Source: a bacterium A37T11 (GTDB lineage: Bacteria; Bacteroidota; Bacteroidia; Sphingobacteriales; Sphingobacteriaceae). From it: a stretch of 64,000 nucleotides of DNA. This document shows positions 1 to 21,029 of this stretch, piece after piece; the stretch's first letter is position 1, and each line of letters starts with the position of its first letter. The stretch lies in NCBI GenBank assembly GCA_900109895.1, contig FOBR01000006.1, positions 1 through 64,000 of the forward strand. The letters run 5' to 3'. Below the pieces are notes generated by a model that was not told the origin of the DNA, ran no database searches, and saw only the letters and a list, made by a program, of their open reading frames with translations. The position numbers and the translations under genes are program-made.

Positions 1-1
1 G

Positions 2-682
2 AAATTTGACATTCGCAAAGCCTTTGGGATGCTGTATGATATTACGACCAGTAAGAAAGGAGCGAACAGCATCTGGCTTGCCGAGCGGTACGGTGTTAAT
101 CAAAAAACCTCCTGGCTTTTCCGCCAGAAAGTACAGCTGGCCATGAAGAGCGGTGAGCAATATCCCCTTGAAGAAGAAGTTCATGTTGATGAGTTTGAAA
201 TCGGCACCCCTCAAAAGGGCGAGCAGGGACGCAGCAAAAGCGAAAAGAAAGTACGTGTGGTGGTGGCTTTTGAAAATCGGGACGGAAAAGCAGGCAGAGG
301 CTATGCTCGTGTGATAGCAGATTATAGCTCCGCCTCTTTAAAGCCCTTGTTTGATGCCCATATCAGCCATGATGCCAAAATAATGGCAGACGGGTGGCCA
401 GGCTACAGCCCGCTCAAAGAGGAATATGAAGGTTTACAGCAAACACTCTCTGATAAAGGAAGGAATTTCCCGATGCTGCATATCCAGATCAGAAACTTTA
501 AGAACTGGCTCAGAGGTGTACATTCTTATTGCAACAGGGAGTATCTGCAGCGATATATGGATGAATACTTCTTCCGCTTTAACAGGAGGAACCACAGGGA
601 AACAATTCTGGACAAAATCATCATCCGTTGCGCTAAGCATAAACCGATGACTTATGCTCAAGTAAAAATAGTTGAGAACTAA
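2..682 (+). CDS. IS1595-family (ISXO2-like) transposase, 5' end outside window
   Basis: This is the C-terminal part of a DDE transposase; the frame is open to the window edge, so the N-terminus (normally a zinc ribbon) is missing. About 226 residues are visible. The acidic residues of the ISXO2-like domain appear in VDEFEIG and in ADGWPGY, followed by the conserved NFKNWLRGVHSYC region and EYFFRFNRR near the C-terminus, as in IS1595 transposases. The frame ends in a clean stop and looks intact as far as it can be seen. A GGGTAACCC motif at 685-693 may belong to the right inverted repeat, but the left end is not available to confirm it. The element borders the exporter locus, whose genes point toward it. 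Confidence 0.85.
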   Translation, partial: KFDIRKAFGMLYDITTSKKGANSIWLAERYGVNQKTSWLFRQKVQLAMKSGEQYPLEEEVHVDEFEIGTPQKGEQGRSKSEKKVRVVVAFENRDGKAGRGYARVIADYSSASLKPLFDAHISHDAKIMADGWPGYSPLKEEYEGLQQTLSDKGRNFPMLHIQIRNFKNWLRGVHSYCNREYLQRYMDEYFFRFNRRNHRETILDKIIIRCAKHKPMTYAQVKIVEN

Positions 683-741
683 ATGGGTAACCCTATAAGT
701 TTTTTATCATAACGTTTACTTTATATTCTAAGCGAAGCGAT

Positions 742-771: not shown

Positions 772-3210
772 TCATTCATCTCTTAAACTATCCACCGGAT
801 TGACTACCGCGGCTTTAATGGCTTGAAATCCGACCGTCAACAGGGCTATCAATATCGCCCCCGACCCGGCTAAGGCAAACATCCACCACTGGATAGTGAT
901 GCGGTAGGCAAAATCATTTAACCATTGGTTCATCGCCCACCACGCAATTGGCGAGGCAATGACTAAGCCCAAACACACCAATTTAACAAAATCTTTAGAC
1001 AACATCGCGAAGATGCCCGATACCGATGCTCCAAGTACTTTACGGATACCAATTTCTTTTGTCCGTTGGGATGCAGTAAGCTTAGCCAGACCAAACAGGC
1101 CGAGGCAACTGATCAGGATGGTAACCGTCATGGCCGCATTGATTAATTTGGCGGTTTGTTGTTCCTGTTCATACAAGGAGGCGATCGTTTCATCATAAAA
1201 ATGGTATTCGAAGGGTGCCTGCGGATATTGTTGGTGCCACGCTTCACCGATCCGCTGAATGGCTTTGCCCCAAGCCTCCGGATGTGCCGGAGGCAATTTT
1301 ATATTCAGCGTACCAAGACCCCATTCGACCGACGAAATGAACGCCGCAGCATCGATCTTGCTTTTCATACTGAACTCATGATAATCGCGCACCACCCCAG
1401 TGATCGGCAAACTTTTCTGTCCATCGTAATTATAGAGCCGCTTGCCGATGGCCGCCTGGGGCGAACTGAAGCCAAAGGCTTTTAACGCGGTTTCATTGAT
1501 GATGTATTCCTTTACCGTATCTGATCCTTCCAGGTTCTTTCCGGCCAGCAAGTCCATTTTATACAGATCCAGATAGTCGGCGTCCACATTTTTCAGCATA
1601 ACCTGTTGTTGGACGTCGCCACTGTCGCTTTTATAAATAAATAGGCTGGCGTTCATCCCGTCGCTCATGGGAATATCACCCAAACTGACGGATTCAATTT
1701 CCGGACGTTTTTTCAACTCACGCTTTAAAATAAGTTCCCGGTTTTTCAAAGCCGGGTCTTGGCGCAACTTGTAAGGAATCTGCACCTGGAGTACGGCCTC
1801 GTGGTCAAATCCGGGATCTTTGGTTAAAGAAAAATGCAATTGCTGGCCCATTATGACCGCACAAATGACAAATACCTGGGCAAAAGCAAACTGGAAAACC
1901 ACCAACGCTTTGCGCATACTGATCTGTCCCTTGCCCATCTTCTGTACCTGCCCCTTTAATACCTGAACAGTTTGCACCCGTGTGACCAGCCAGGCCGGGT
2001 AGAGACCTGAAAGCAGGGTTATGGCCAATATCAGGATCGTTCCAAAGGCCAGCAGCCCAGGTATATTTGAATATGCTAACATTCCTTCAGGGATGTAACC
2101 GCTAAACAGGTGAAGGGCCAATTGGGCAAGTAAAACGGACAGTAACAGGGCCATCAGGGTGATCAGCAAAGTTTCAATGAGGAACTGCAGAATGAGCCTG
2201 TAGGGAGTATCGCCAAGGGTTTTCCGCACACCGATCTCCCGGGCACGTTCCGGCAGTTGTGCCGTGCTTAAGTTAATGTAATTGATGCAGGCCAATGCCA
2301 GCAGGAAGAAGCCTACACCCACTAAGCCAAACAACACGCTTTTATTCGCGGTACGCGTATGCCATCCATATTCCGTTGCAAAATGCTTGTCTGGCAAGGG
2401 CAGTAATTCATACCACGATCTATATTTATATTTTTCGAACTCCGCCTTATTATGGGCTATATTGAGCGCATTGATCTGTTTTAATACCTGCGCCGGTGTC
2501 ACCTCTTTTCTCAATTTGATAAAGAGCAGCTCATTGGAATTGACACTGGACCAATCCGTACTGGACATGTCCTGCGAAGAAATGGCAAAAAATTCCTGTG
2601 CCGGAAAACTGTTGGGGGATACCAGGTCGGCCACTACGCCCGATACACTGACAGACAAGGTATCGTTATAGATAATAGTTTGCCCGATCATCTTATCAAC
2701 CGGCCAATTTGGGAAATATTGGTTGGCGCGGCTACGGGTAAGTACTATCTTATCCGGGGCATCCAGCGCATGCTCCGGTTCCCCGGAAAGCCACTTATAG
2801 CCCAGAAGCCTAAAATAATCCGGCCGTGTACCGATCTGTTCTGCCGGCTCTTCAAGCCAAAGAGGCTCCTTGTTGGCGGTTCCCTGTGTTTTTGCTGATT
2901 CGCTATACCGGTAATAAGCTGGCGCCACCAGTTCTATGCCGGAAACCGCGCCTGTGATTGCCGGGAGAAGGCCTTTGGAGATCGCTGAACGCCCCCCACC
3001 CCGTCCATCTTCGGTCTGCATGCGGCTCACGACCTGAAAAACGCGGCCGGCATCCGGCTGATGCTTATCAAAACTAAATTCATAATCCACCATCAGGTAG
3101 ATGACCCAGCAGGCACTGATTCCAATACTCAGCCCCACGATGTTCAGGATGGTAAATAGTTTACGCCGCCATAGGTGACGCAATGTGATTTTAAATAAGT
3201 TCTTTATCAT
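772..3210 (-). CDS. MacB/FtsX-type ABC transporter permease (812 aa)
   Basis: Inner-membrane permease of the MacB/LolCE type. Such proteins have no pore of their own and transmit ATPase-driven movements to the periplasm. The layout is the Bacteroidota duplicated form. An N-terminal membrane segment lies near residues 20-40. It is followed by a periplasmic MacB_PCD-like domain, three membrane segments carrying the FtsX motif INYINLSTAQ...GVRKTLG (about 310-335), a second periplasmic domain, and a C-terminal FtsX block with KEIGIRKVLG and the ending NPVDSLRDE. The start MIKNLFKITLRHLW is the usual one for this family. It is the last gene of a three-permease operon, 63 bp after its neighbour. 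Its last ~95 residues are almost the same as those of the adjacent permease, although the rest is diverged. The substrate cannot be read from sequence; peptides, lipids or antimicrobials are possible for the family. Confidence 0.9.
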   Translation of the reverse strand: MIKNLFKITLRHLWRRKLFTILNIVGLSIGISACWVIYLMVDYEFSFDKHQPDAGRVFQVVSRMQTEDGRGGGRSAISKGLLPAITGAVSGIELVAPAYYRYSESAKTQGTANKEPLWLEEPAEQIGTRPDYFRLLGYKWLSGEPEHALDAPDKIVLTRSRANQYFPNWPVDKMIGQTIIYNDTLSVSVSGVVADLVSPNSFPAQEFFAISSQDMSSTDWSSVNSNELLFIKLRKEVTPAQVLKQINALNIAHNKAEFEKYKYRSWYELLPLPDKHFATEYGWHTRTANKSVLFGLVGVGFFLLALACINYINLSTAQLPERAREIGVRKTLGDTPYRLILQFLIETLLITLMALLLSVLLAQLALHLFSGYIPEGMLAYSNIPGLLAFGTILILAITLLSGLYPAWLVTRVQTVQVLKGQVQKMGKGQISMRKALVVFQFAFAQVFVICAVIMGQQLHFSLTKDPGFDHEAVLQVQIPYKLRQDPALKNRELILKRELKKRPEIESVSLGDIPMSDGMNASLFIYKSDSGDVQQQVMLKNVDADYLDLYKMDLLAGKNLEGSDTVKEYIINETALKAFGFSSPQAAIGKRLYNYDGQKSLPITGVVRDYHEFSMKSKIDAAAFISSVEWGLGTLNIKLPPAHPEAWGKAIQRIGEAWHQQYPQAPFEYHFYDETIASLYEQEQQTAKLINAAMTVTILISCLGLFGLAKLTASQRTKEIGIRKVLGASVSGIFAMLSKDFVKLVCLGLVIASPIAWWAMNQWLNDFAYRITIQWWMFALAGSGAILIALLTVGFQAIKAAVVNPVDSLRDE

Positions 3211-3273
3211 TTCTTTAAACTATAGTTATTCATCGCGCAAAGACTTGATCCCAATAAATTCGGAATCTCCAAG

Positions 3274-5946
3274 TTACTCATCCCTAAGGCTGTCGACTGG
3301 ATTGGTTACCGCTGCTCTGATGGCCTGAAAACCGACCGTTAACAAAGCGATCATAATCGCTCCAACGCCGGCCACAGCAAACATCCACCACTGGATCGTA
3401 ATGCGGTACGCAAAATCATTTAGCCATTGGTTCATCGCACACCACGCTAGTGGTGAAGCGATGACCAAGGCCAAACACACCAATTTAACAAAATCTTTAG
3501 ATAGCATCATCACGATGCCCGATACGGTGGCTCCTAATACTTTCCTGACACCTATTTCTTTTTTACGCTGATCTGCCGTAAACATAACCAGGCCAAGCAA
3601 ACCCAGGCAAGCTACAAAAATAGTCAACCCGGCAAAAAGACCCAATATAGACCCCGTGACCTGCTCTGCCCGATACGTATAATTGAAAAAATCGTCTAAA
3701 AACTGATAACTAAATGATATTTCCGGATTTAGGGAGTTATATCTCTTTTCTATGCTCTTTATGAGCCCTTCCATATCGGCCTTTTTTGTCTTGACCATCA
3801 GGTTGCCAAAATTGTGCTGCATGACCATCACCATAGGGCTAATGGACTCATGAAGGGACTTAAAATGGAAATCTTTGACGACTCCGACTACACGGTAAAC
3901 TTTGTTGTCTTTATTAACCAACGTTTTTCCGAGTGCATCATCTTTCCATCCGAGCGCGGTGGCAGCTGTTTCATTGAGAATGGCGCTGAGGGAGTCTGTA
4001 CCGTAATCCTGTGAAAAATTTCGGCCGGCTTTCAACTGGATGCCCAACGTTGGGATATAACGCTCATCTATGTCATAGCGCAGGGTCTTGGTCCATGATG
4101 AAGGGGCTGCCTGAGTATGAACGAAGAAATTATTATTGGCAGATGGCCCAACGGGCATATACGGTGAATTGGTGACATTTAGCACACGCGGATCCTGTAA
4201 TAACTCCTGCCGGAGGACTTCTTCATTTTTATCCAATGGCCAGCTCTGGATCACCAGCACATGATCTTTGTCATATCCTAATTTCTTATGCTGGATGAAA
4301 AAGAGTTGTTCATAGATCACCAGCGTACCAAAAACCAGCACGATAGAAACAAAAAACTGAAAAACGACCAGTCCACTACGCATTCCAAGGCCCTTTTTAT
4401 CGGTTTTGAACCGTCCTTTGAGAACGGCAATGGGCTTAAATGCCGAAAGGAAGAATGCCGGATAGCTTCCGGAAAGAATTCCTACTAACAATCCGAATAA
4501 AATTACGCCAGGAAATAACCATACAAACATAGACGGGTGCAGGTTAAGGGATAATTTAAAAAAGTGATTGAATAGTGGCATACCTATAGCCAGCAGCCCG
4601 AATGCGAGAAATAAACTTAAATATACCAACAGAATGGATTCTACAAGAAATTGAGCTGAGAGCTCCCGTTTACCAGAACCGAGCACTTTCCGAACTCCAA
4701 CCTCTTTTGCCCTTCTCGAAGCTCCGGCTGTAGATAAATTCATAAAATTGACCATCGCGATGAGCAGCATGAAAATAGCGACCGCGCCAAAAATATAGAC
4801 ATAACGGATATCACCTGGTGAAGCAAGGTCACTGCTGAAATTGGTCTCTAAATGGATATCCGTAAGTTTTTGCAGGAATAATCCAATATGATTGCCTGCC
4901 TTACGAAATTCCGAATAGCTCATTCCGAAAGCTGCCGGAAATTGCGGACCTGCGTATTTTTCAAAAACCGTCGGAAGTCTTTCAGCAATTGCCCCGGCGT
5001 TTGCACCGGGCCGCAATAATAGATAGGTATAAAATTCGGAGTCCATCCATGACGTGGATGTGGCGTCGGGTAAACCAGCCATGGATGCAAAGACATCGGC
5101 ATGAAAGTGTGAATTTTCTGGGATGTCTTTCATAACGCCTGTGACGGTTAAAAGGGAGTCACCACCTTCAATAGAGAACGTGCGGCCAAGCACCTGGAGG
5201 CTACCAAAGTATTTTAGGGCGGTTTGCTCTGAGACGACGACCCCATGAGGCGCTGTAAGAGCAGTTTCGGGGTTACCTTCCAAAAGTGGCAGTGTAAAAA
5301 CACGGAACAATGCTGGGTCTGCATACAGCATCCGATTCCCATAAAACCTTTTTCCTCCCAGGACAAAGAGGGGCCTCCCAGCATCCCTTAAACGGACCGT
5401 TTCTTCCACTTCCGGGAAGTCGGCTTTTAACACTTGTGCTACCGGAGGCATCACATGGGCTTCGCTGATCTTTCCTCCGGGCACGTTGCCTTTGAAAACG
5501 ACCCGGACGATACGGCCTGCTTTCACGTTGAACCGGTCATAGCTGAGTTCATGGAACACATACAGCCCGATTAGCAAAAAAGTAGCAAGCCCAATGGCCA
5601 GGCCCACGATATTGATGGATGAAAAGACCCGTTGCCGGAGCAGGTTACGCCAGGCGATCTTTAGATAGTTACGTATCATATAATTGTTTAATGCCAACGG
5701 CCAATTCCTCTCTTTGTCTACGTTTTTACCAGGCGGTTGTAAAAAGTTTAACAATTGTTTCTTTTCCAGCTCGCTTATTTGCGGATCCGGATCCTGGTAG
5801 CTTTGCAGGAATTCCATCACCTGTGCTTTTACTATCGGATGGTCATCCAGCAAATCTTTCAGCTCGCTTAATGCCTTTGCCTGGGCATCACCTGCCAAGG
5901 CCTTTTCTACAAGATCCCAAATCCGCTCTTCCATCATCTCATTCAT
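3274..5946 (-). CDS. MacB/FtsX-type permease with N-terminal cytoplasmic prefix (890 aa)
   Basis: Permease of the same duplicated FtsX layout as its neighbours, but preceded by about 87 extra residues. The prefix is soluble, with no membrane segment, and helical. It includes EERIWDLVEKALAGDAQAK and an LLDDHP motif, and resembles the prefix domains annotated on some Bacteroidota permeases as well as the start of FecR-type anti-sigma factors. The permease proper begins near MIRNYLKIAWRNLLRQR at about residue 88. The FtsX motifs are MNLSTAGASRRAKEVGVRK (first block) and KEIGVRKVLGA (second); the protein ends NPVDSLRDE. It is the middle gene of the operon, 27 bp after the upstream permease. The prefix could bind a regulator or the ATPase, but that is inference. 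The C-terminal ~95 residues form a near-identical patch with the 772-3210 gene, which suggests gene conversion. Confidence 0.9.
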   Translation of the reverse strand: MNEMMEERIWDLVEKALAGDAQAKALSELKDLLDDHPIVKAQVMEFLQSYQDPDPQISELEKKQLLNFLQPPGKNVDKERNWPLALNNYMIRNYLKIAWRNLLRQRVFSSINIVGLAIGLATFLLIGLYVFHELSYDRFNVKAGRIVRVVFKGNVPGGKISEAHVMPPVAQVLKADFPEVEETVRLRDAGRPLFVLGGKRFYGNRMLYADPALFRVFTLPLLEGNPETALTAPHGVVVSEQTALKYFGSLQVLGRTFSIEGGDSLLTVTGVMKDIPENSHFHADVFASMAGLPDATSTSWMDSEFYTYLLLRPGANAGAIAERLPTVFEKYAGPQFPAAFGMSYSEFRKAGNHIGLFLQKLTDIHLETNFSSDLASPGDIRYVYIFGAVAIFMLLIAMVNFMNLSTAGASRRAKEVGVRKVLGSGKRELSAQFLVESILLVYLSLFLAFGLLAIGMPLFNHFFKLSLNLHPSMFVWLFPGVILFGLLVGILSGSYPAFFLSAFKPIAVLKGRFKTDKKGLGMRSGLVVFQFFVSIVLVFGTLVIYEQLFFIQHKKLGYDKDHVLVIQSWPLDKNEEVLRQELLQDPRVLNVTNSPYMPVGPSANNNFFVHTQAAPSSWTKTLRYDIDERYIPTLGIQLKAGRNFSQDYGTDSLSAILNETAATALGWKDDALGKTLVNKDNKVYRVVGVVKDFHFKSLHESISPMVMVMQHNFGNLMVKTKKADMEGLIKSIEKRYNSLNPEISFSYQFLDDFFNYTYRAEQVTGSILGLFAGLTIFVACLGLLGLVMFTADQRKKEIGVRKVLGATVSGIVMMLSKDFVKLVCLALVIASPLAWCAMNQWLNDFAYRITIQWWMFAVAGVGAIMIALLTVGFQAIRAAVTNPVDSLRDE

Positions 5947-5973: not shown

Positions 5974-8391
5974 CTACTCATCCCTAAGCGAATCCACCGG
6001 ATTGGAATTGGCGGCTTTCAGCGCCTGTACGCTGATCGTGCAAAAGGCGATGAACAGCGCCACGCAGCCCGAAAGCACAAATACCCACCATTCCGGCTGT
6101 ATACGGTATGCAAAGTCATCCAGCCATTTGCTCATCGCCCACCAGGAAACGGGGAACGCAATGACCGCCGCGAAAACAACCAGCAAAAGAAAGTCACTAG
6201 ATACCAGCCGGACAATGGAACCGCTGGTAGCACCCAACATTTTGCGGATGCCAATCTCCTTGACCCGCTGCGAAATGGTGAAAGCAGACAAACCAAAAAG
6301 CCCCAGGCCCGCAATGAAAATAGCAATGCACGAGAACAAGGTGAAGATAACCTGCTGCTGTTGTTCGGCCTTGTAGAGATCCTCAAAGCGGTTGTCCAGA
6401 AAGGTATATTCAAAAGGTGTTTGCGGCAAAAACTGTTCCCAGGTATGTTGTATGTGACGGATCGCCTGCTGTACATCGCCCTTTACTTTGACGGTAATCC
6501 TGCCATAGCGATTTTTTTCGGTGTCATTAAATAAGACCAACGGGATGATCCGCTGATGCAGGGACTCAAAATTAAAATCGTTCATCACCCCGGCAATCTG
6601 TCCTTTCCTGTCGTCGTATTGAAAAGGCAAGCCTATTGCGTCCGCATTATTTTTTATCCCAAGAGCCTTCACCGCCGCCTCATTGAGGATGAACGATGAA
6701 GTATCGCTTCCGTCGTTTCCTTCAAAATTCCGCCCAGCTTTCAACCGAATGCCGTAAGCCGGGATGAAGCCTTCATCAGCCCGGACGTATTTGATATCGG
6801 CTTTGGCCGGCTCCAGGTTATTTCCCCGATCGATCTGGGAGCCGGCGGCATCCAGCAGTCTTCCGGAAGGGATACGGCTGGAGCGGCCAACTTCGGTGAT
6901 GGAAGGATTGGACAATAGCATCGTTTTCATCGACTGAAAACTGTTCTTTAACGCATCATCGTTGTTTAAGATCAGCAAACGGTCTTTTTCGAAACCCAGG
7001 CTCTTCTGCTGAATGTATTGCAATTGCCGGAAAACGATGAGTGTACCGATGATCAGTATAATGGAAACAGAAAACTGGAAGACCACCAACACCTTTCTCA
7101 GTGAGATGGTTTTGTTACCAGTGTTTACAATCCCCTTTAATACGCTGATCGGCTTAAAGCCGGCAAGGAACAAAGCCGGATAGATACCCGATAAACCGCC
7201 CACCACAAACGGAAGCAGACAGATGCCAATGAGCGTACCTGCGTGCAGGAATTGACCTGGCGTCAATTGTTTCCCCGATAGCATATTCAGGCCGGGCAGC
7301 GCCATCCAGGTAAGGACCAAAGACAGCAGGCAAGCCAATAGGCACAGCAAAAAACTCTCACTAAGGAACTGCCAAACCAGTTCTTTCTTTTCTGCCCCGA
7401 TCACTTTCCGGATGCCGATCTCCTTGGCGCGCAGGGCAGAACGTGCGGTGGAAAGGTTCATGTAATTAATGCCTGCGATCAGCAAAATGAACAGGCCGAT
7501 CAACCCGAAAATGTATACCCGGCTGATATCGCCGTTTTCCTCTAATTCCGAATCCTTATGTGAATACAGGTGGATATCGGTTAGTTTCCGCAACGACAAC
7601 GAGGTCCACTCCTGTGTCCGGTCATCGGCATTCGGGATATGCCGGTTTAAAAAGGCCGGAAACTGTGCTTCTAAATGGCCTGCATCGTAGTTTTTTGGCA
7701 ATAACAGATAGGTATAAAAAGCATTGTTGCCCCAATTGGTCCTCAATTGTTCAGCTCCGTAAACCGCCGTGTCCCTCAGTGTGGAAAAAGACAACAGCAT
7801 ATGGGGATGCCAGTGCGCATTGGAAGGCAGGGCCTTATAAACCCCTGTAACGGTAAAAACCAAGTTTTGGTTAAACTTGACCAACTTGTTGATGGGGTCC
7901 TCGTTACCGAAATACTTGCGGGCAGTCTCTTCCGTCAGCATCACTGAATACGGCTCTTTGAGGGCGGTGGCAGGATTACCCTTCAATACGTTCACGTCAA
8001 AAACCCTGAACAGGTTTTCATCGGTAAAATAGTTATTTTCTTCATTAAAGAGCTTATCTTTGTATTGCATCGCAATATTCCCTCCCGGCAAGATGCTGGT
8101 AACGGCTTTTATCTCCTTAAAATCGTTTTGAAGCAAAAGCCCTACAGGTGGGGCCACTGCCCCTAGTTCCAGGGAGACGCTTTTGCTGTCCTGATTCAGA
8201 AACGTCCGCTCGACCCGGTAAACCTGGTCTGCCTGCGAATTGTAGTGGTCATAACTCAGTTCATCGGAAATATAGATCCCGATCAGCAGGCAGCAGGTGA
8301 TGCCGACACTCAATCCAAACAGATTGATCAGGGATACAAACCGGTATCTTAAAAGGCTCCGCCAGGCAATCTTGAAATAGTTCTTTATCAT
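5974..8391 (-). CDS. MacB/FtsX-type ABC transporter permease (805 aa)
   Basis: First gene of the intact three-permease operon. It starts MIKNYFKIAWRSLLRYR, has one membrane segment at about 20-42, then a periplasmic domain. The first FtsX block contains INYMNLSTARSALRAKEIG; a second periplasmic domain follows, then the final FtsX block with RVKEIGIRKMLGA, ending NPVDSLRDE. No lesion is seen. The upstream 330 bp carry no complete gene. They hold a palindrome at 8527-8542 matching those upstream of the ATPase and adaptor genes, so this operon probably has its own regulated promoter although it lies downstream of two decayed permeases. A TATATTTG box at about 8490 on the minus strand could serve as a -7 element. 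It probably shares the single MacB-type ATPase of the locus; that pairing is inference. Confidence 0.9.
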   Translation of the reverse strand: MIKNYFKIAWRSLLRYRFVSLINLFGLSVGITCCLLIGIYISDELSYDHYNSQADQVYRVERTFLNQDSKSVSLELGAVAPPVGLLLQNDFKEIKAVTSILPGGNIAMQYKDKLFNEENNYFTDENLFRVFDVNVLKGNPATALKEPYSVMLTEETARKYFGNEDPINKLVKFNQNLVFTVTGVYKALPSNAHWHPHMLLSFSTLRDTAVYGAEQLRTNWGNNAFYTYLLLPKNYDAGHLEAQFPAFLNRHIPNADDRTQEWTSLSLRKLTDIHLYSHKDSELEENGDISRVYIFGLIGLFILLIAGINYMNLSTARSALRAKEIGIRKVIGAEKKELVWQFLSESFLLCLLACLLSLVLTWMALPGLNMLSGKQLTPGQFLHAGTLIGICLLPFVVGGLSGIYPALFLAGFKPISVLKGIVNTGNKTISLRKVLVVFQFSVSIILIIGTLIVFRQLQYIQQKSLGFEKDRLLILNNDDALKNSFQSMKTMLLSNPSITEVGRSSRIPSGRLLDAAGSQIDRGNNLEPAKADIKYVRADEGFIPAYGIRLKAGRNFEGNDGSDTSSFILNEAAVKALGIKNNADAIGLPFQYDDRKGQIAGVMNDFNFESLHQRIIPLVLFNDTEKNRYGRITVKVKGDVQQAIRHIQHTWEQFLPQTPFEYTFLDNRFEDLYKAEQQQQVIFTLFSCIAIFIAGLGLFGLSAFTISQRVKEIGIRKMLGATSGSIVRLVSSDFLLLVVFAAVIAFPVSWWAMSKWLDDFAYRIQPEWWVFVLSGCVALFIAFCTISVQALKAANSNPVDSLRDE

Positions 8392-8723: not shown

Positions 8724-10494
8724 TTATTCATTTCTAAGGCTCTCTACCGGGTTGGCGATAGCCGCCCGGATGGCCTGGAAACTGATGGTAATAAAAGCGA
8801 TCAACGTCGCGATCAGCACGGCTATGCCAAAGATCCACCAGCTCATGCTCACCCGGTAAGCATAGTCCTGCAGCCAGGCATCTACAGCTATCCAGGCCAG
8901 CGGTAAGGCCAATAATGCGGCAACCAGCACGTATTTCAAAAAGTCCGCAGACAACATGGCGCCGATGTGCTGCACGGAAGCGCCCAATACTTTCCGGATC
9001 CCTATTTCCTTCACCCTTGTTTTTGCTGAGTAAGACGCCAGACCGAACAATCCGAGGCAGGAAATAAATACGGCCAGGCCCGCCAATACGCCGACTATCG
9101 TACTTACCTGTGCATCCGCGCGGTATACTTCCGCAAAATGCTCGTCCAAAAACTGGTATTCAAACGGATGGTCCGGAAAGCTGCACTGCCAGACATACTG
9201 AATAAACGGGAGTGCCTCTTTGGCATGCTGGCCGCTTATCTTTATGGAAAGATTGCTGAAACCCCACTCTTTTTGATTGAACAGAAACATCGTTTCGATG
9301 GCATGATGCAGGGAATTGAAGTTAAAATCCTTTGCGATACCCACAATGGTACCCAACGAATCGAAGCCAAAATTCGGCAATTGGAGCCGGCGCTGGATCA
9401 GGTTATTTACGACAGGCAACAATGTCTCCACCAGAATAAGCGCAATAAACAGGGCGATCAATGAAAGCAGCAACGATTCTCCGATGAACTGTGCACCCAA
9501 TTGCCATCGATGGGCACCCACAGACTTCCGCACGCCGACCTCTCTGGCCCGTTCTGCCGAACGAGCCGTAGAAAGGTTCATGAAGTTGATGCACGCAATC
9601 GCCAATACGATTAAAGCTATACCAAAAAACATACTGGTATACGTTTTATCAAATTTCTGGTAATTGACATAATCCAATCCGATATCGGTGGCATTGGCAT
9701 GTACATCCCGCAACGGCAAGAGGAACAATTCGTAGAATTTCCAGCCTTCCCCCCGGAGACATATACTTTTTTAAATAACCTGGGAATTGCTTCTCCAAAG
9801 CAGCTACATCTGTGCCCGGCGATAACTCCACATAGGTATTAAGCCAATTGCCGCCCCAATTGTCTTTCCAATTTGGCTGATAGATGGTACTAAAGGAAAA
9901 CAGGCCGTCAAACTGAATTTGGGAGTTTTGCGGTACGTCTTCCAGAATACCTGTCACTACGAAGCTGGTCGTATCCCCGGCATAATGGGTCAGTGTTTTG
10001 CCTAGGGCCTCCTCTTTGCCAAACATCTTTTCTGCTCTGGATTTTGTAAGGACCACACTATTGGGCTTTTGCAGCATGGTAGCCGGGTTCCCTTTGACCA
10101 GCTTAAAGTCAAACAACTGCAAAAAGGTGGAATCTACAAAAAGCATCTGAGGGAAGTACACCTGTTTCTCGCCATAGGTCAGCGGATATTTTTGCCGCCA
10201 GCTGAGCCGGGTGAAGTTTTTTATCTCCGGGAATTCACTTTTTAAGGTAGGCCCCATGGGAAACATGGATAACGCCACTTTCTGAGATGACAACATCCCT
10301 TCAAATTTCTGCACTTCATTCAGGCGGTAAATGTTCTTTGAATGAAAATTATCAAAACTACGTTCATAAAAAACAAACAGCAGGATTATCAGGCTAGCGG
10401 CTATGCCGATAGCCAAGCCCGAAATATTAATAAACGAATAACCTTTGGACTTCCAAAGGTTCCGCCAGGCTATTTTAATATAGTTCTTTATCAT
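8724..10494 (-). pseudogene. decayed MacB/FtsX permease (frameshift plus internal deletion)
   Basis: The gene starts at the ATG at 10494 (MIKNYIKIAWRNLWKSKGYS). It keeps a normal N-terminal membrane segment and first periplasmic domain, up to FPGYLKKYMSPG. A frame change follows in a six-C run at 9749-9754. In the new frame the protein resumes as WKFYELFLLPLRDV, then the FtsX motif INFMNLSTARSAERAREVG. A second lesion is an in-frame deletion: near 9370, LPNFGFDS runs straight into GTIVGIAKDFNFNSL. About 200 residues (membrane segments 3-4 and most of the second periplasmic domain) are therefore missing. The C-terminal block (KEIGIRKVLGA, NPVESLRNE) is complete. The total is about 590 codons against roughly 800 in intact relatives. 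It lies 30 bp after the next decayed permease in the same direction. Confidence 0.85.
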
Positions 10495-10524
10495 AAAATC
10501 TCCTTTTCGCTTTATGCTCAATAA

Positions 10525-12904
10525 TCACTCATTCCTAAGTGACCTGATTGGATTTTCCCGCGCAGCCCTGACCGTAAGCGAGCTGATTACCGCTAGCGCA
10601 ATGAAAATGGCTATCATCCCTGCAACGGCAAAAAACCACCAACTTAGACTGATATGATAGGCAAAATTGTCCAACCATTTATACATAAAAAACCAAGTTA
10701 TTGGAGTAGCGATTAGGATGGAGATAACTACCAATTTTATAAAATCTGCCGATAATAATTTTACAATACCTGTGATGCTTGATCCCAATACCTTCCGCAC
10801 GCCAATTTCCCTGTAACGCTGTGTTGTATTGTAGGACACAAGTCCAAATAAGCCTAAGCAAGAAATAATAATGGCTAATACGGCAAAATTGAGAAAAATA
10901 CTGCCGAAGCGGTTTTCACTCTTATATTGACGGTTGAAGTATTCGTCTGCAAAGTAGTATTCAAATGGCCGGTTCGGGATCATTTCCTGCCATTTTTTCT
11001 CAATAGCTTTTAGTGTAGAGGCTACATATTTACCGTCAATCTTGACAGAAACCAAATCGCTTGATCCCGTATTGTATTGCATGCTCAGGGGTTCAATTTT
11101 GGACTGCAAAGATTTAAAATGAAAATCTTTGACCACCCCTATGATCTACCCTTCTGCCCCATTGTGAAAATCGCTTGCCAATGGCTTCTTTCGGGGATGT
11201 GTAACCTAATAAACGGACGGCGCTTTCAATAATGATTAAAGCTTTGGCCGTATCTGTACCAAACTCTTTGGAAAATGCCCTGCCTGCTACCATGTGGATT
11301 TTGTACTGCGGAATATAATCGTCATCCACATAATACAAAGACAAGCTGCATACCTACAAATCGCCTTTATTGTTCTCTAGTTCTGAATATGCGATCGCAT
11401 TTCCTCCTCCGGGAACCGAAGAAGATTGTGAACTTGACAGTACACCCGGTAGATTGGTCAGCGCTTCTTTTAATAACTCACTTTTGGCATCGCCATCAGT
11501 CTGTAGCACCAGCATTTGGTCTTTGCTATATCCAAGGTCCTGATCGCGCATAAAACCCAATTGGCTGGAAACGATCATCGTACCGGCAATAAGTGCGATA
11601 GACACGACAAATTGAATGATCACAAGCGATTTCCGCAAAAACTGTCCCTTTGCATTGGAAGAAAATTTACCTTTCAATACAGTTACGGGGTTAAAGGAAG
11701 AAAGGACCACCGCAGGATAAATGCCCGCCAGCAAGCCAAAACAAATGGACAATAAAAATAAAATCCCTATATAAATGGGTTCATGAAACAACCCTGCGCT
11801 GATCTGTTTACCCACTATATCATTAAAATAAGGAATAATAAGCCAGCAAAGTAGTATAGCTATTACAAATGAAAGCAGGCAGATCAAAATAGACTCGCTG
11901 AGGAATTGCCGCATGATCTGGTTTCGGTAGGCACCGACCACTTTACCTAATCCCACTTCTTTGGCCCGTTCAAGCGCCCTTGCAGTGGACAAGTTAATGA
12001 AATTAATAGGCGACCAGCAAGACAAAGATGGCTATAATGGAAAAAATATAGACATTGTTAATGTTTCCGGTTTCAAAACCTTCCGTCCGGTCGGAGCGCA
12101 GGTAAACATCCCTAAAAGGCTCTAGCGCTAAATTATATTGCATTTTTTGTTTGTACATCATCTCCCCTACCCTCGTTTTCAGGAAACCAGGAAATTTGGC
12201 TTCCAGAGACGCTGAATTGGTGTTAGGTTTGAGCAACAAGTACGTGATTACGCCAAAATTTGACAATTGGTTCTCCAGTGTATCCTTAAAGGTGTGAGAC
12301 ATGGTTGACATGGAAGCCAGCATATCTGCTTTAAACTGTGAATTTTCTGGCATATCCATCATAATTCCCGTTATTTTCACCGGAAAGGAACGATCGGTTA
12401 TCAACAAGCTTTTTCCCATGGGGTTTTCGTTCCCGAAATATTTTTTTGCGCTTGACTTGGATATCACCATGCTCAGTGGTTCCACCAAAGCTGTTTTGGG
12501 ATTTCCGGCTATTAAGGGAAAGTCAAAGATGTTAAACAAGGTGGAGTCTGCTAGGAAAAACCGGCTTTCCTGAAATTTTATGTCGTCCTTCCGCACTAAG
12601 AAGCTATTCTGGGCTAGGCGGACATATTTTTCTACTTCCGGAAAATCTTTGGCAACATAGGCCCCATTGGTCCTGAGGTAACCGCTAAGTGCAGTTTATC
12701 AGAAGGAGTGTTGATATCGCAGGCTAATCGGTATAACCGGTCGGCTTTACTGTGAAAATTATCATAACTAAGTTCAAAATGAACATAAATAGCAATCAGG
12801 AAACAGGCAGTCATTCACACCGCCAAACCAAAAATATTGATCGCAGAAAACCCTTTAGTTTTCCAGATATGGCGCCAGGCAATTTTGAGATAGTTCTTTA
12901 ACAT
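10525..12904 (-). pseudogene. decayed MacB/FtsX permease with at least five lesions
   Basis: The gene is near full length (about 793 codons) but broken. From the ATG at 12904 it reads MLKNYLKIAWRHIWKTKGFS, then meets TGA at about 12815-12817 inside the first membrane segment. There is a frame change in the GPMG region near 12650, another near 12010-12025 at the start of INFINLSTARALERAKEVG, a TAG at about 11351-11353, and a further frame change near 11130, just before VKDFHFKSLQSKIEP. The C-terminal FtsX block (REIGVRKVLGS, NPIRSLRNE) is intact. Several independent lesions in two adjacent genes, with clean genes all around, argue for real decay and not sequencing error. It follows the ATPase gene by 48 bp and was probably cotranscribed with it. 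Confidence 0.9.
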
Positions 12905-12952: not shown

Positions 12953-13627
12953 TTAACCCACTGCCTCCATAATCACCTGCCCATCCAACATTCGTATCAC
13001 CCGGTCAGCATAGCGGGCGTCGTGCTCACTGTGGGTTACCATCACGATGGTTGTTCCCTGCTCATTCAGTTCTGTGAGCAACTGCATGACTTCATTACCA
13101 TTGTTAGAGTCCAGGTTTCCGGTTGGTTCATCCGCCAAAATTAGTTTAGGGTTGTTGACGACGGCACGAGCCACGGCAACCCTTTGTTGTTGCCCACCCG
13201 ATAACTGCTGCGGGAAGTGGTTGCGCCGATGCATGATCTGCACCTTTTCCAGCACCTCTTCCACCTTCTTTTTACGTTCTGCCGCAGGAACCTTGGTATA
13301 GATCAGCGGAAGCTCTACATTTTCAAACACAGTCAACTCATCAATCAAGTTAAAACTTTGAAAGACGAAGCCAATATTGTGCTTACGCAAATCCGAACGT
13401 TTACGTTCGTTGAATTTAGCTACTTCAATGTTATTAAATAGATAACTGCCTTCATCCACATCATCCAGTAAACCAACGATGTTTAGCAATGTAGACTTTC
13501 CACATCCGGATGGACCCATCACTGCCACAAATTCACCTTCTTTTACGTGAATGCTCAGGTTATTGAGCGCTACCGTCTCTACTTCCTCAGTCCGGTAAAA
13601 TTTTTGAAGATTTGCTATTTTGATCAT
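12953..13627 (-). CDS. MacB/LolD-type ABC transporter ATP-binding protein
   Basis: ATPase subunit that would power the FtsX-type permeases of this locus at the inner membrane. It has 224 residues from the start MIKIANLQKFYRTEE at 13627; an upstream in-frame extension exists but family alignment favours this start. Walker A is GPSGCGKST (about 38-46), the Q-loop VFQSFN (about 88), the signature LSGGQQQR (about 142), Walker B LILADEPTG (about 162), and the H-loop lies in VTHSEH. All ATPase motifs are complete although the two permeases directly behind it are dead. It is the only MacB-type ATPase seen in the locus, so it probably serves several permeases. Upstream lie two palindromes (13774-13810) and a TAACTTTG box on the minus strand near 13690 resembling the Bacteroidota -7 element. 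Confidence 0.93.
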   Translation of the reverse strand: MIKIANLQKFYRTEEVETVALNNLSIHVKEGEFVAVMGPSGCGKSTLLNIVGLLDDVDEGSYLFNNIEVAKFNERKRSDLRKHNIGFVFQSFNLIDELTVFENVELPLIYTKVPAAERKKKVEEVLEKVQIMHRRNHFPQQLSGGQQQRVAVARAVVNNPKLILADEPTGNLDSNNGNEVMQLLTELNEQGTTIVMVTHSEHDARYADRVIRMLDGQVIMEAVG

Positions 13628-13773
13628 ATTTTTTATTGTTAAAGCCAAGACGCACTGTGGCAATATATAGCCTAGTGTTTAACACCCAAAGTTAATGACA
13701 CATAGCCGATAATCATTCCAAAAGTTTAAGTTTATGGATATCAAAAACTTAAATTACCAGGATTATATATACA

Positions 13774-17300: not shown

Positions 17301-19664
17301 CTATTCCGTCCTTATTGCTTTGATCGGATTTTCCTGCGCCGCTTTGAGCGATTTTCCACATACGGTCAATACGGCTACAGCAAAGGCAACTAAACCGGCA
17401 ACAAGAAATACCCACAAATGAATATTGGTCCGGTACACATAGTTATCCAGCCATTTGTTCATCATCCACCAGGACAATGGGAATGCTACGATAAATGAAA
17501 TCACCACCAATTTCAAAAAATCTTTTGAAATCAACAAAATAATATTGTTTACACTTGCACCAAGCGTTTTCCGTATTCCAATCTCCTTAACACGAGTCTC
17601 TGCTGTGAAGGTGACCAATCCAAAAAGTCCAAGGCATGACAAAAAGATCGCTATACCTGCAAAAATATTAAACAACTGCCCGGCACGAATATCACTTTTA
17701 TAAAGTTCATCAAACGATTCATCCATAAATTTAAAATCAAAATTGTAATCCGAATTATATTCGTTCCAAAGCTTTTTGACTGCCGATAATGCCTTCTCTG
17801 CATCAACTCCTGTCGTTTTGACGTACATGGTTCCCCATCCCCAATTGGGATCCATAAACAGGATACAGGGTTCTATGGGCGTTTTCATATCTTTAAAATG
17901 AAAATCTTTAACTACACCCGCAATGATACCCGGTTTGTCGTGAAATTTGACCGGCTTACCAATGGGATCAGAAATGCCCATCAATTTGATCGCAGTCTCG
18001 TTCAGGATGTAATTGCCCCTATCAGCTGCTGTTCCTGTAAAACCTTTTCCCTGCGCAAACTGCATATCCATTACTTTAGGAAAAGTACGGTCTACAGAAA
18101 GCTGATTGATCATAAAATTATCCATAATTGCTGGTTTCCCCTCCCATTCCAGGTCGCCGGTTGAACTTTGTACGTTAAGCACAGACTGATTGGACACCGT
18201 CACACCAAGCACACCAGGCTGTTTTTCCAGTTCATTACGGAGGGCATCGTACCGGGACTGCCGGCTGAAATTGTAGGAATCAAAGCTAAACACATTATCC
18301 TTGGTATAACCCAAGTTCATATGGCGAATGTAACGTAATTGCTGACTGATGACTAAAGTAGAAACGATAAGTACCACTGAACAGGTAAACTGGACAACCA
18401 CCAACAGTTTTCGGAAACCATTGTTCTTACCCAACCCCGGAAGTATACCTTTCAGGGCCAGGGCTGGATTGAAAGTAGAAAGCATAAGTGCCGGATAGAC
18501 TCCTGCCAGCAGCAGTACGGCTAAAAGTGAAGCACCAAACAATGCCCATACTTTGCTATCCAATAAACTAAAAACCATTTCTTTACCAGAAAGTGAGTTA
18601 TATAATGGCATAATAGCATAGATCAATCCTACAGCAATCCCCATCGAAATCACAAACACAACAAAGGATTCGGTAATAAATTGCCAAAAAAGATGCCCCT
18701 TATTTGCGCCGATCACCTTACGAACACTAATTTCCTTGCTGCGACGGCTGGAACGGGCAGTCACCAAGTTCACATAATTAATGCAAGCGATCAGTAGGAT
18801 CACCAGCGCTACTAAAATAAACCCCTTGACCTGTTGCATGCCCTGCTCTTCTCCCTGAGGCCCATATAAATGCCCTTCATACAAAGGTTTCATCAAGTAT
18901 TTCAGGTCTTTGAAAAAGGGTGAGGGCTGGTTTTTCTTATGAATTGCTGCCAGTTTTAGGCCAACTTTGACCGGATCTGCTCCAGATTTTAATAAAAAAT
19001 AACACTGATAGTTAAAATTGCCCCAGTCCTGATCCATCGGATTTTTTTCGCGGCCCTCATTTAATATAGCAAACGGCATCAACATATCATAGCGCATGGA
19101 TGAGTTAGCAGGCATATCCTCCATGATACCTGTCACCTTATAAACATCTTTATCGCCTATTTTTAATACCTTTCCCATCGGCTCCGCTGTTCCAAAAAAT
19201 TTTTTAGCATAGGATCTTGATAATATAACTGTACGGTTATCTGGAAATGGCTTTTTTGAATTCCCCTCTACAATTTTAAAATCAAAGATGGTAAAAAAGC
19301 TGGGATCCACATACCGCATAATTTCGTTAAACTTTTTCCCCTGATATTCCACTAAGCGATTACCCTGATTATCCTGTATACGGCAGGCATCTTCAATTTC
19401 AGGTATTTCAGCTTTTCCAAAAACTGCTAAAGGAGCATTGCTGGTTGTCCAAACCATCCCCTTTGCCGGATCAATGGCTGCTACTGTTTGGTAAATCCGA
19501 TTACCCTTGGAATGCATGCGGTCAAAACTCAACTCATCCCACACCCACATCAACAAGAGCACCGCCGCCGCCAGGCTCACCGCCAACCCTGAAATGTTGA
19601 TTGCAGAATAAACCTTGTTCTTGAACAACGTCCGGAATGCCGTCTTAAAATAATTTTTGATCAT
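17301..19664 (-). CDS. MacB/FtsX-type ABC transporter permease (787 aa)
   Basis: Intact permease of the duplicated FtsX type. The start is MIKNYFKTAFRTLFKNK, with a first membrane segment at about 20-42. The first FtsX block holds INYVNLVTARSSRRSKEIS; a second periplasmic domain follows, then the final block with RVKEIGIRKTLGA, ending NPIKAIRTE. It directly follows the adaptor gene (3-bp gap), so the adaptor and this permease form a pair. This fits a MacA-MacB-like machine whose ATPase is encoded separately, 3.7 kb downstream. Its ending differs from the SLRDE/SLRNE ending of the other permeases, so it is probably an older branch. Confidence 0.92.
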   Translation of the reverse strand: MIKNYFKTAFRTLFKNKVYSAINISGLAVSLAAAVLLLMWVWDELSFDRMHSKGNRIYQTVAAIDPAKGMVWTTSNAPLAVFGKAEIPEIEDACRIQDNQGNRLVEYQGKKFNEIMRYVDPSFFTIFDFKIVEGNSKKPFPDNRTVILSRSYAKKFFGTAEPMGKVLKIGDKDVYKVTGIMEDMPANSSMRYDMLMPFAILNEGREKNPMDQDWGNFNYQCYFLLKSGADPVKVGLKLAAIHKKNQPSPFFKDLKYLMKPLYEGHLYGPQGEEQGMQQVKGFILVALVILLIACINYVNLVTARSSRRSKEISVRKVIGANKGHLFWQFITESFVVFVISMGIAVGLIYAIMPLYNSLSGKEMVFSLLDSKVWALFGASLLAVLLLAGVYPALMLSTFNPALALKGILPGLGKNNGFRKLLVVVQFTCSVVLIVSTLVISQQLRYIRHMNLGYTKDNVFSFDSYNFSRQSRYDALRNELEKQPGVLGVTVSNQSVLNVQSSTGDLEWEGKPAIMDNFMINQLSVDRTFPKVMDMQFAQGKGFTGTAADRGNYILNETAIKLMGISDPIGKPVKFHDKPGIIAGVVKDFHFKDMKTPIEPCILFMDPNWGWGTMYVKTTGVDAEKALSAVKKLWNEYNSDYNFDFKFMDESFDELYKSDIRAGQLFNIFAGIAIFLSCLGLFGLVTFTAETRVKEIGIRKTLGASVNNIILLISKDFLKLVVISFIVAFPLSWWMMNKWLDNYVYRTNIHLWVFLVAGLVAFAVAVLTVCGKSLKAAQENPIKAIRTE

Positions 19665-19667
19665 TGC

Positions 19668-20921
19668 TTACTTCCCAATATTCAATTCCTGAACCTTATC
19701 GTAAGTTTCATAACTTGAAGTGACCACCTTATCCCCTGGTTTCAGGCCTTGCAATACCTCATAATATTCTGGATTTTGCCGGCCCAACTGCACTTCTGTC
19801 CGGAAAGCTGTTTTACCGTCCTCACTTACTTTAAACACCCAGTTGCCGCCTGTTTGTTGGTAAAAACCTCCTTTGGCTAATAATACAGCCTTAGTTTCAT
19901 CGCTTAGTGCCAAACGGATCTGAAGGGTTTGGCCACGCCGAATTCCTTTCGGTACTTCCTTATCAAACACCATGTCTACTTGAAAACGGCCATTGGTCAC
20001 CTGCGTATACACTTTTTTAATCTTTAAAGTATAGTCTTTGTCTGACAGGGTAAACTCACCCTCCAGATCCGGAAATATGCGTGAAATATAATGTTCATCA
20101 ATATCTGCCCTTACTTTAAATCCAGTCAGCACATCTATCTGACCCAATCGTTCTCCAGCAGGTTTATTTTGGCCGATCTCTGCATCAAAAGAAGTCAACT
20201 GGCCATCCACAGGTGCACGTACGATGAGATCACCAACCTTTCGGCGCATCAGTTCCAATGCACTGCGGGTACGTACATAGGTCTGTTTGCTATCTTCCAG
20301 CGACCGTTTGTTCCTGATTGAGTCCTGCTCCACATTTTCCCGGGTCAGTTTCATTCGTTCCTGCTGATAGGTATATTCATTTGATGCTTTTTCAAATTCC
20401 TGCCGTCCAATCGCTTTTTGATTATAAAGGTGTTTATTCAGGTCAAACATACGTTTCGCTTCCTTCAGCCCATTTTCAACCGAAGCCAATTCGTTCCTGT
20501 TGGAGATAGAAGCCTGCTGCGCGTTAGTTTGGGATATTTGCGATTGGGTCAATAAGTTGAGTACGTTGGTTTCCTGATTAACCAGACTCAATTCAAGATC
20601 CGTATTGGACAACCGCATAATTGGGTCGCCCTTCTTTAAAATCGCCCCATCTTCCACATATTTCTCTTCTACCCGCCCCCCTTCGGAAGCATCCAAATAA
20701 ATACTGCTAATTGGCATCACAGCACCGTTTACCGGTATGAACTCCCTGAATGAGTCTTCTTTTACTTCCGAAATGGTGATACGCTCGGCCTGCACATTTA
20801 ATTTACTGTTTCCCGATGTAAAGTAATAGCTCGCAAAAATAAGGGCCAATAAGGCCACTATCCCTACAAGCGTTAAGATCCGCTTGGTGTTCCACTTCTT
20901 TTTTTGTATAACTCTGTCCAT
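19668..20921 (-). CDS. HlyD/MacA-like periplasmic adaptor (membrane fusion protein)
   Basis: Adaptor that would link an inner-membrane permease to an outer-membrane channel. A single N-terminal membrane anchor (ILTLVGIVALLALIFASYY) is followed by the first half of a biotinyl-lipoyl-like domain (EGGRVEEKYVEDGAILKKG). A long alpha-helical coiled-coil hairpin covers about residues 105-225. The second lipoyl half is DLIVRAPVDGQLTSF, and beta-barrel and membrane-proximal domains reach the C-terminus. The start is set at 20921 (MDRVIQKKKWNTKR). A longer in-frame start at 20981 would run through the predicted promoter at 20960-20975, so the shorter form is preferred. It is followed 3 bp later by the permease. 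No TolC-like gene is in the window. Two palindromes lie about 110-145 bp upstream. Confidence 0.9.
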   Translation of the reverse strand: MDRVIQKKKWNTKRILTLVGIVALLALIFASYYFTSGNSKLNVQAERITISEVKEDSFREFIPVNGAVMPISSIYLDASEGGRVEEKYVEDGAILKKGDPIMRLSNTDLELSLVNQETNVLNLLTQSQISQTNAQQASISNRNELASVENGLKEAKRMFDLNKHLYNQKAIGRQEFEKASNEYTYQQERMKLTRENVEQDSIRNKRSLEDSKQTYVRTRSALELMRRKVGDLIVRAPVDGQLTSFDAEIGQNKPAGERLGQIDVLTGFKVRADIDEHYISRIFPDLEGEFTLSDKDYTLKIKKVYTQVTNGRFQVDMVFDKEVPKGIRRGQTLQIRLALSDETKAVLLAKGGFYQQTGGNWVFKVSEDGKTAFRTEVQLGRQNPEYYEVLQGLKPGDKVVTSSYETYDKVQELNIGK

Positions 20922-20959
20922 TTTACTCGCTGTCGACTTTAAAATATTTTCCCAACTAT

Positions 20960-20975
20960 AGATAAGTGCGTGCCA
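20960..20975 (-). promoter_or_regulatory. sigma-54-like -24/-12 promoter of the adaptor operon
   Basis: On the minus strand the sequence is TGGCACGCACTTATCT. The -24 part, TGGCACG, matches the sigma-54 consensus fully. The -12 part, TATCT in place of TTGCW, keeps only the C and flanking T. Transcription would start near 20949, between the two candidate start codons, and so supports translation from 20921. Paired activator sites lie 55-106 bp further upstream. Confidence 0.5.
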
Positions 20976-21029
20976 TAACACAAAAATTTTAATTATCAGT
21001 CATTTAAACGCCGCCCACTAAACTTACAC

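Follow-up and report, generated by a model that had tools for sequence, protein, structure and literature searches.

The window, by which we mean the whole stretch of 64,000 nucleotides analyzed here, harbors an array of paralogous ABC permeases, all encoded on the minus strand. Two neighbors are of primary concern: gene A (772..3210, 812 aa) and gene B (3274..5946, 890 aa), both duplicated MacB_PCD/FtsX permeases with intact reading frames. The next permease of the array, gene C (5974..8391), is followed by two consecutive paralogues disrupted into several frames, one of two ORFs (8724..10521) and one of three (10525..12596); these are either decaying members of the array or sequencing errors, and either could have been a source of tails. 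An ABC ATPase of 236 aa (12953..13663, minus strand) adjoins the array, and a HlyD-like adaptor (19668-20981) lies near it. Permease F (17301..19664) has an unremarkable tail that does not pair with that of A or B. In A, B, C and F, both PF12704 (MacB_PCD) and PF02687 (FtsX) match above the gathering score, in two stretches each. The first 88 residues of B (5683-5946) have no Pfam match and precede the usual start of the permease; matches to the two nearest orthologues of B begin at its residue 89.

The end of the contig is occupied by an ISXO2/IS1595-type transposase at 29-682 (window 1-710), whose presumed terminal repeat adjoins a truncated permease start at about 694-710. An imperfect copy of this repeat is found at the end of contig C26 of G000 (L017 17600-17711), beside the start of the permease at 193148-195628, and the 11-nt flank TATAAGTTTTT is common to both places. 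The two contigs are probably neighbors that were split by the insertion and belong to one longer permease array. Two further observations concern the family as such. A broken paralogue of A is present at L016 9097-11064 (G000 C21:45096-47063), where the match crosses four TGA and four TAA codons, and G001 carries 22 permeases of the same family within about 60 kb (C34:324000-392000, L080-L083).

For the C-terminal part of A, AlphaFold2 (mean pLDDT of the model 85.2) predicts helices 717-725, 730-764, 775-802 and 805-811. The first of them falls at the expected place of the second coupling helix, a putative role derived from the layout of FtsX and MacB. What we call the 3´ module thus comprises the candidate coupling helix, the last two long helices and a short tail helix; it spans codons 718-812 in A (775..1059) and codons 796-890 in B (3277..3561). 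YbbAP, LolCDE, MacB and FtsEX are type VII ABC systems. They share a common fold with A, but only 10-20% of sequence identity. The structural alignment of A with E. coli YbbP covers 617 residues (Z 16.3, rmsd 9.8); the two halves of A each align with LolE-, MacB- or FtsX-like chains. The ADOP family (NCBIfam TIGR03434) has the same duplicated layout and matches A, B and C over nearly their full length, with 308 bits for A and 302 and 290 bits for B and C, scores that do not reach its cut-off of 622.

The initial annotation held that the last ~95 codons of A and B are nearly identical, with NQWLNDFAYRITIQWWMFA present in both genes, while the rest of the proteins is strongly diverged. The shared sequence is indeed found in both genes and the bodies are as diverged as was claimed, with 41% identity in DNA and 28% in protein. 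The high identity of the tails (A codons 718-812) is real as well, 87% in protein; "nearly identical" is too strong a wording, as DNA identity amounts to only 80% and the longest exact run to 31 nt. When the codon alignment is divided into blocks of 20 codons, DNA identity of A and B stays between 0.23 and 0.60 up to A codon 703, and then takes values of 0.70 (codons 704-723), 0.82-0.87 (724-783) and 0.77 (784-803). The A-C and B-C pairs show only a mild, family-wide rise to 0.50-0.70 in the tail blocks, and the tail of C, with 61-62% DNA identity to A and B, stands outside of the exchange. The best single change-point lies at A codon 702 (LR 179, against a maximum of 34 in 500 permutations), with identity of 0.40 upstream and 0.79 after it. 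The windowed identity thus rises abruptly and not smoothly, into a tract that greatly exceeds the family baseline, as gene conversion would have it.

Exact in-register runs of at least 9 nt in the tails measure 12, 31, 15, 13 and 20 nt; the longest shared run in the bodies has 11 nt. Where A and B encode the same residue, a hand count in the codon alignment gave identical codons at 35 of 45 positions in codons 729-779 and at 10 of 28 in codons 780-812. The core of the exchanged tract therefore corresponds to codons 729-779 in A (874..1026) and 807-857 in B (3376..3528). The observation regarding A and B is confirmed, with an exchanged tract shorter and more worn than the original description implies.

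Separate phylogenies of the two parts are in conflict. We built trees of bodies and tails and performed AU tests with 34 chosen rows out of 103 permeases. In the body tree, A groups with its orthologue at G017 C3:5120-7552 (support 99) and B groups with G002 C4:138192 and G020 C94:327090 (support 100); the arrangement of A and B as sisters is rejected (p 4.7e-74). In the tail tree, A groups with B, with support of 98/80 in protein, where the bootstrap had not settled, and a weaker 89/57 in DNA. The grouping of the B tail with its two orthologues is rejected both in DNA and in protein (p 0.004), while that of the A tail with the G017 orthologue is not (p 0.086). DNA identity of the B tail is 0.63 and 0.59 to the two orthologues of B, 0.69-0.73 to relatives of A in G003 and G017, and 0.80 to A itself. 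Because the bodies sort with different orthologues and the tails with each other, B carries a tail of A type, displaced from those of its own orthologues. The direction of transfer was thus probably from A type into B, judging by these sequence relationships. The recombination or gene conversion proposed for this pair is supported by the identity switch, the conflict of trees and the AU tests alike. None of the 40 relatives searched belongs to the same genus, so the event is undatable.

How exceptional is the pair within its family? We compared 103 permeases from 12 genomes in 5,151 of 5,253 possible pairs (626 within and 4,525 between genomes), and the excess of tail over body DNA identity is highest of all in A and B. 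Part of the contrast is ordinary, since conservation of the C-terminal domain is higher throughout the family (mean column identity 0.54 vs 0.33); 15 places in the genome of A and B carry this tail at E 0.001. A larger set was assembled from 20 stretches chosen from longer match lists, stretches of the own genome and 76 named loci. The named loci were retrieved by means of six peptide patterns derived from A, including one from the tail (AWWAMNQW). ORFs below 600 aa and hits of 150 bits or less were dropped from both sets, ORFs of 1,000 aa or more from the large one, which retained 354 permeases under 72 genome labels.

A scan of this set in 40-codon windows took 61,751 of 62,481 possible pairs. 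A and B tie for the top within-genome score, z 5.1 among 1,282 pairs; of the 60,469 between-genome pairs, 34 contain a window with z of at least 5 in any part of the gene. Scores of at least 4 occur in 20 of the within-genome pairs against 282 of the between-genome ones, and the five within-genome pairs at z of at least 4.5 all fall in codons 701-768. At z of 5.5 or more there are no within-genome pairs and seven between-genome ones, which all involve one gene of Sphingobacterium yanglingense, in codons 69-108. In the best 40-codon window of A and B (721-760), 22 of 30 silent codons are identical where codon usage predicts 9.2; the uncorrected p is 1.9e-6, and only one of the 1,261 within-genome pairs has a smaller one. 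Likeness at silent sites is thus present in the core of the tract and absent in codons 780-812. Uncorrected p below 1e-5 was obtained for 10 of the 1,261 within-genome and 36 of 59,806 between-genome pairs, and three of the latter fall below 1e-6, so single-pair silent tests need to be treated with caution.

We consider it quite probable that recombination or conversion has put an A-type 3´ end on B and that the same module is exchanged recurrently in other Bacteroidota. A and B would belong, as old and strongly diverged members, to a family of duplicated MacB/FtsX permeases arranged in tandem. Within the lineage of this genome, the A-type 3´ end would have been copied over that of B, approximately from where the second coupling helix begins up to the vicinity of the stop codon, with both genes being kept. 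The process would be homologous recombination, of which gene conversion is the simplest form, and it may have taken place more than once; we infer conversion rather than a double crossover. Later drift of the pair would then have left 80% DNA identity and a core of about 150 nt. The identity switch, the conflict of trees and the outlier rank are established by the data; direction and age of the event are inferred. As the best-conserved part of these genes, the 3´ module has seemingly been swapped repeatedly among paralogues of other Bacteroidota as well. The tails of a lineage may thus undergo partly concerted evolution, with each body following its own course as a separate gene.

The rival that survives best, although we regard it as unlikely, is unequal crossing-over between members of the tandem array, resulting in chimeric genes. 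Being arranged head to tail on the same strand, the genes could yield intact chimeras through a crossover inside the conserved 3´ module, and the number of permeases examined differs between genomes (12 in that of A and B, 22 in G001). But in a single crossover of A and B the DNA between the two would be lost or doubled, and both genes keep their own bodies. Moreover, similarity does not clearly continue downstream: past the stop codons of A and B, the alignment score is 27 against the best of 24 in 200 shuffles. The same comparison in eight pairs gave 29/25 for Albibacterium, 42/30 for G003 and a strong 117/26 for Fibrisoma, where the shared start of the next permease is suspected to be the source; in the other four, similarity past the stop is not above 200 shuffles. 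Finally, the excess of silent identity in non-adjacent pairs or pairs from different loci (1.17-1.21) nearly equals that of neighbors (1.21).

Exchange of the tail seems to repeat itself in other genomes. In Albibacterium (G017), the orthologue of A and its neighbor have DNA identity of 0.78 in the tail and 0.44 in the body; the protein tree of 34 rows, where the bootstrap was unsettled, separates the two tails, and the DNA tree of 103 permeases makes them sisters. Of 98 cherries in the protein tree of 314 tails, 19 are formed by permeases of the same genome, in comparison with 3-4 of 90-102 in trees of body columns matched for conservation. The bodies are less than 40% identical in 11 of the 19. 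Eight of these 11 combine bodies of 27-37% with tails of 72-87% identity; the tails of the remaining three reach 41-58%. The eight comprise A and B, two pairs of Fibrisoma and one pair each of Parapedobacter lycopersici, P. tibetensis, a Saprospiraceae bacterium, Runella and Spirosoma. Observed against expected numbers of identical silent codons in the tail are 44/26.1 for A and B, 46/25.4 for P. lycopersici, 40/26.1 for Saprospiraceae, 41/27.4 for Spirosoma (where the body is raised too), 39/24.2 and 27/24.2 for Fibrisoma, 28/20.8 for P. tibetensis and 21/21.9 for Runella. Exchange is well supported for A and B and for some of the other pairs.

A triplet scan of 304 children ranks A first and B fourth in strength, with tracts 701-802 and 721-802. 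At z of at least 8, a donor from the same genome was assigned to 59 of the 304 children and one from another genome to 21. At z of at least 5, tracts fall in the tail in 104 of 114 cases with same-genome donors and in 47 of 55 with foreign ones. Because tail tracts dominate with foreign donors too, part of this result is due to old exchanges or rate effects. The nearest tail belongs to an adjacent gene in 68 of 284 cases, where 55.9 are expected, a weak effect of adjacency.

Tails of the whole family cluster by genome. For the clustering tests, genomes with fewer than three permeases and poorly covered rows were removed from the large set, leaving 322 or 314 rows. In a protein tree built on codons 718-812 (314 permeases, 50 genomes), the genome label changes 229 times, against 272 with shuffled labels (z -13.8). 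When body columns of matched conservation are used instead, z lies between -0.5 and +0.5 in five such sets. For 14% of rows the closest tail comes from the same genome, in contrast to 2.5-4.5% with matched columns. Paralogues thus tend to be closer to each other than to orthologues, as in concerted evolution, in the 3´ module only and at the protein level. In windows of 48 codons there is no signal up to 691-738 (z -1.9); it appears at 701-748 (z -5.7) and is strongest at the 3´ end (-14.7), the onset being near helix 717-725, the predicted last coupling helix.

Much of this pooled clustering is at the level of orders and it is weaker within them. Among 283 of the 314 rows, those of Sphingobacteriales and Cytophagales (98 rows from outside the named loci were counted as Sphingobacteriales here, for the order-specific columns and in the same-order comparison of silent sites), the order label changes 14 times in the tail tree and 39-48 times in trees of six other column sets. 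When genome labels are shuffled inside orders, the tail gives z -4.8 and the other sets +0.7 to +2.5. The named Sphingobacteriales loci alone give z -0.2 for the tail, with controls at +1.5 to +2.0, and Cytophagales alone -1.7 and -1.9, with controls at +1.8 to +3.4. Tail columns 802, 803, 807 and 811 are order-specific: Cytophagales mostly have L, M, K and S there; in Sphingobacteriales the residues vary, the most frequent being A at 803 and D at both 807 and 811.

At the DNA level, two lines of evidence do not carry the general argument. Firstly, DNA trees cannot be the main proof of genome-wide homogenization. The genome label changes 49 times in the tail DNA tree, and 25 redraws of codons cluster nearly as much (52.9 changes, sd 2.5, minimum 49); with the proteins held constant, codon usage accounts for most of the clustering. 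For that reason the general argument was moved to protein trees with matched columns and to counts of silent sites. Secondly, clustered runs of silent matches are not specific to the tail, since the within-genome excess (between-genome in brackets) of 1.036 (1.005) is similar in FtsX1, 1.045 (1.020), and in the N-terminus, 1.042 (1.024). The silent counts themselves show an excess over codon usage that is greater in the tail than in the rest of the gene in 44 of 49 genomes. Measured against between-genome pairs, the excess is positive in 40 of 48 genomes (p 3e-8); against between-genome pairs of the same order it is small, with 30 of 39 genomes positive (p 0.0009), and is not significant when Cytophagales are taken by themselves (8 of 11, p 0.15).

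The main rival for the family-wide pattern is selection by a shared partner: a common ATPase would drive the tails alike, with no exchange of DNA. The pattern begins near helix 717-725, the candidate coupling helix of the model, the four tail columns named above hold order-specific residues, and the family-wide signal stands out far better in protein than at silent sites. All of this would suit such selection. The first coupling region, which is expected to face the same kind of ATPase, nevertheless lacks clustering in protein (codons 299-393, z -0.3; 321-368, z -1.3), and in DNA its region 299-393 reaches only z -3.4 vs -22.4 for the tail. Nor would selection on protein be expected to make synonymous codons of A and B identical in runs of up to 31 nt. 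As the overall explanation we find it improbable, more so than unequal crossing-over.

Ordinary inherited conservation of the FtsX C-terminal domain in all paralogues is very improbable. The initial annotation named as a counter-sign that all permeases might share the same C-terminal conservation; a better conserved tail is indeed a property of the family, but the rank of A and B and the columns matched for conservation exceed it. For A and B, plain conservation is rejected by their outlier rank among the 5,151 pairs, by the matched columns and, unless their model is misleading, by the AU tests, and the A-C and B-C pairs are without a jump. Weakest of all is an assembly artefact, for which speaks only that the window begins at contig base 1 and A ends 772 bases from this contig end, beside a transposase; with 80% identity, many scattered silent and amino-acid differences and both frames open, it can practically be dismissed.

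For the general pattern we return to exchange. It is likely that we are dealing with domain-restricted concerted evolution of the 3´ module and that exchange is its cause. We further propose, tentatively and stopping somewhat short of favoring it, that the 3´ module of duplicated permeases in Bacteroidota is an exchangeable cassette, homogenized within lineages by recombination across many diverging bodies, which would yield a lineage-specific "house" version of the end that contacts the engine.

Neither gene conversion nor concerted evolution is new in bacteria. rRNA operons are a known case, and such cases are generally known as homogenization of whole, highly similar genes. As in known concerted paralogues, copies from the same genome are here more alike than orthologues and the copies exchange sequence. 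Unlike in the whole-gene cases, only the last ~95 codons are concerned, and the bodies share about 28% of protein identity. Long-lasting gene conversion or concerted evolution of bacterial paralogues has been described in 26 cases (Wang and Chen 2018, PMC6053082); the main text of that article makes no mention of permeases, ABC transporters or Bacteroidetes. Among the best matches listed in a search of the open literature, there was no report of conversion in MacB/FtsX-type permeases. Confinement of the process to one end of very diverged permease paralogues was likewise absent among the matches listed in the open literature.

If the general pattern is true, then one protein has two histories: the body follows the gene and the tail partly follows the genome. 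Full-length trees of FtsX/MacB-like permeases, as well as orthology calls, would then mix both histories, and some genomes hold at least 20 such genes. It would also mean that concerted evolution in bacteria can be restricted to a domain, in genes whose bodies are too diverged for conversion of the whole gene. Finally, it would give a testable prediction of which end of the transporter must fit the shared ATPase.
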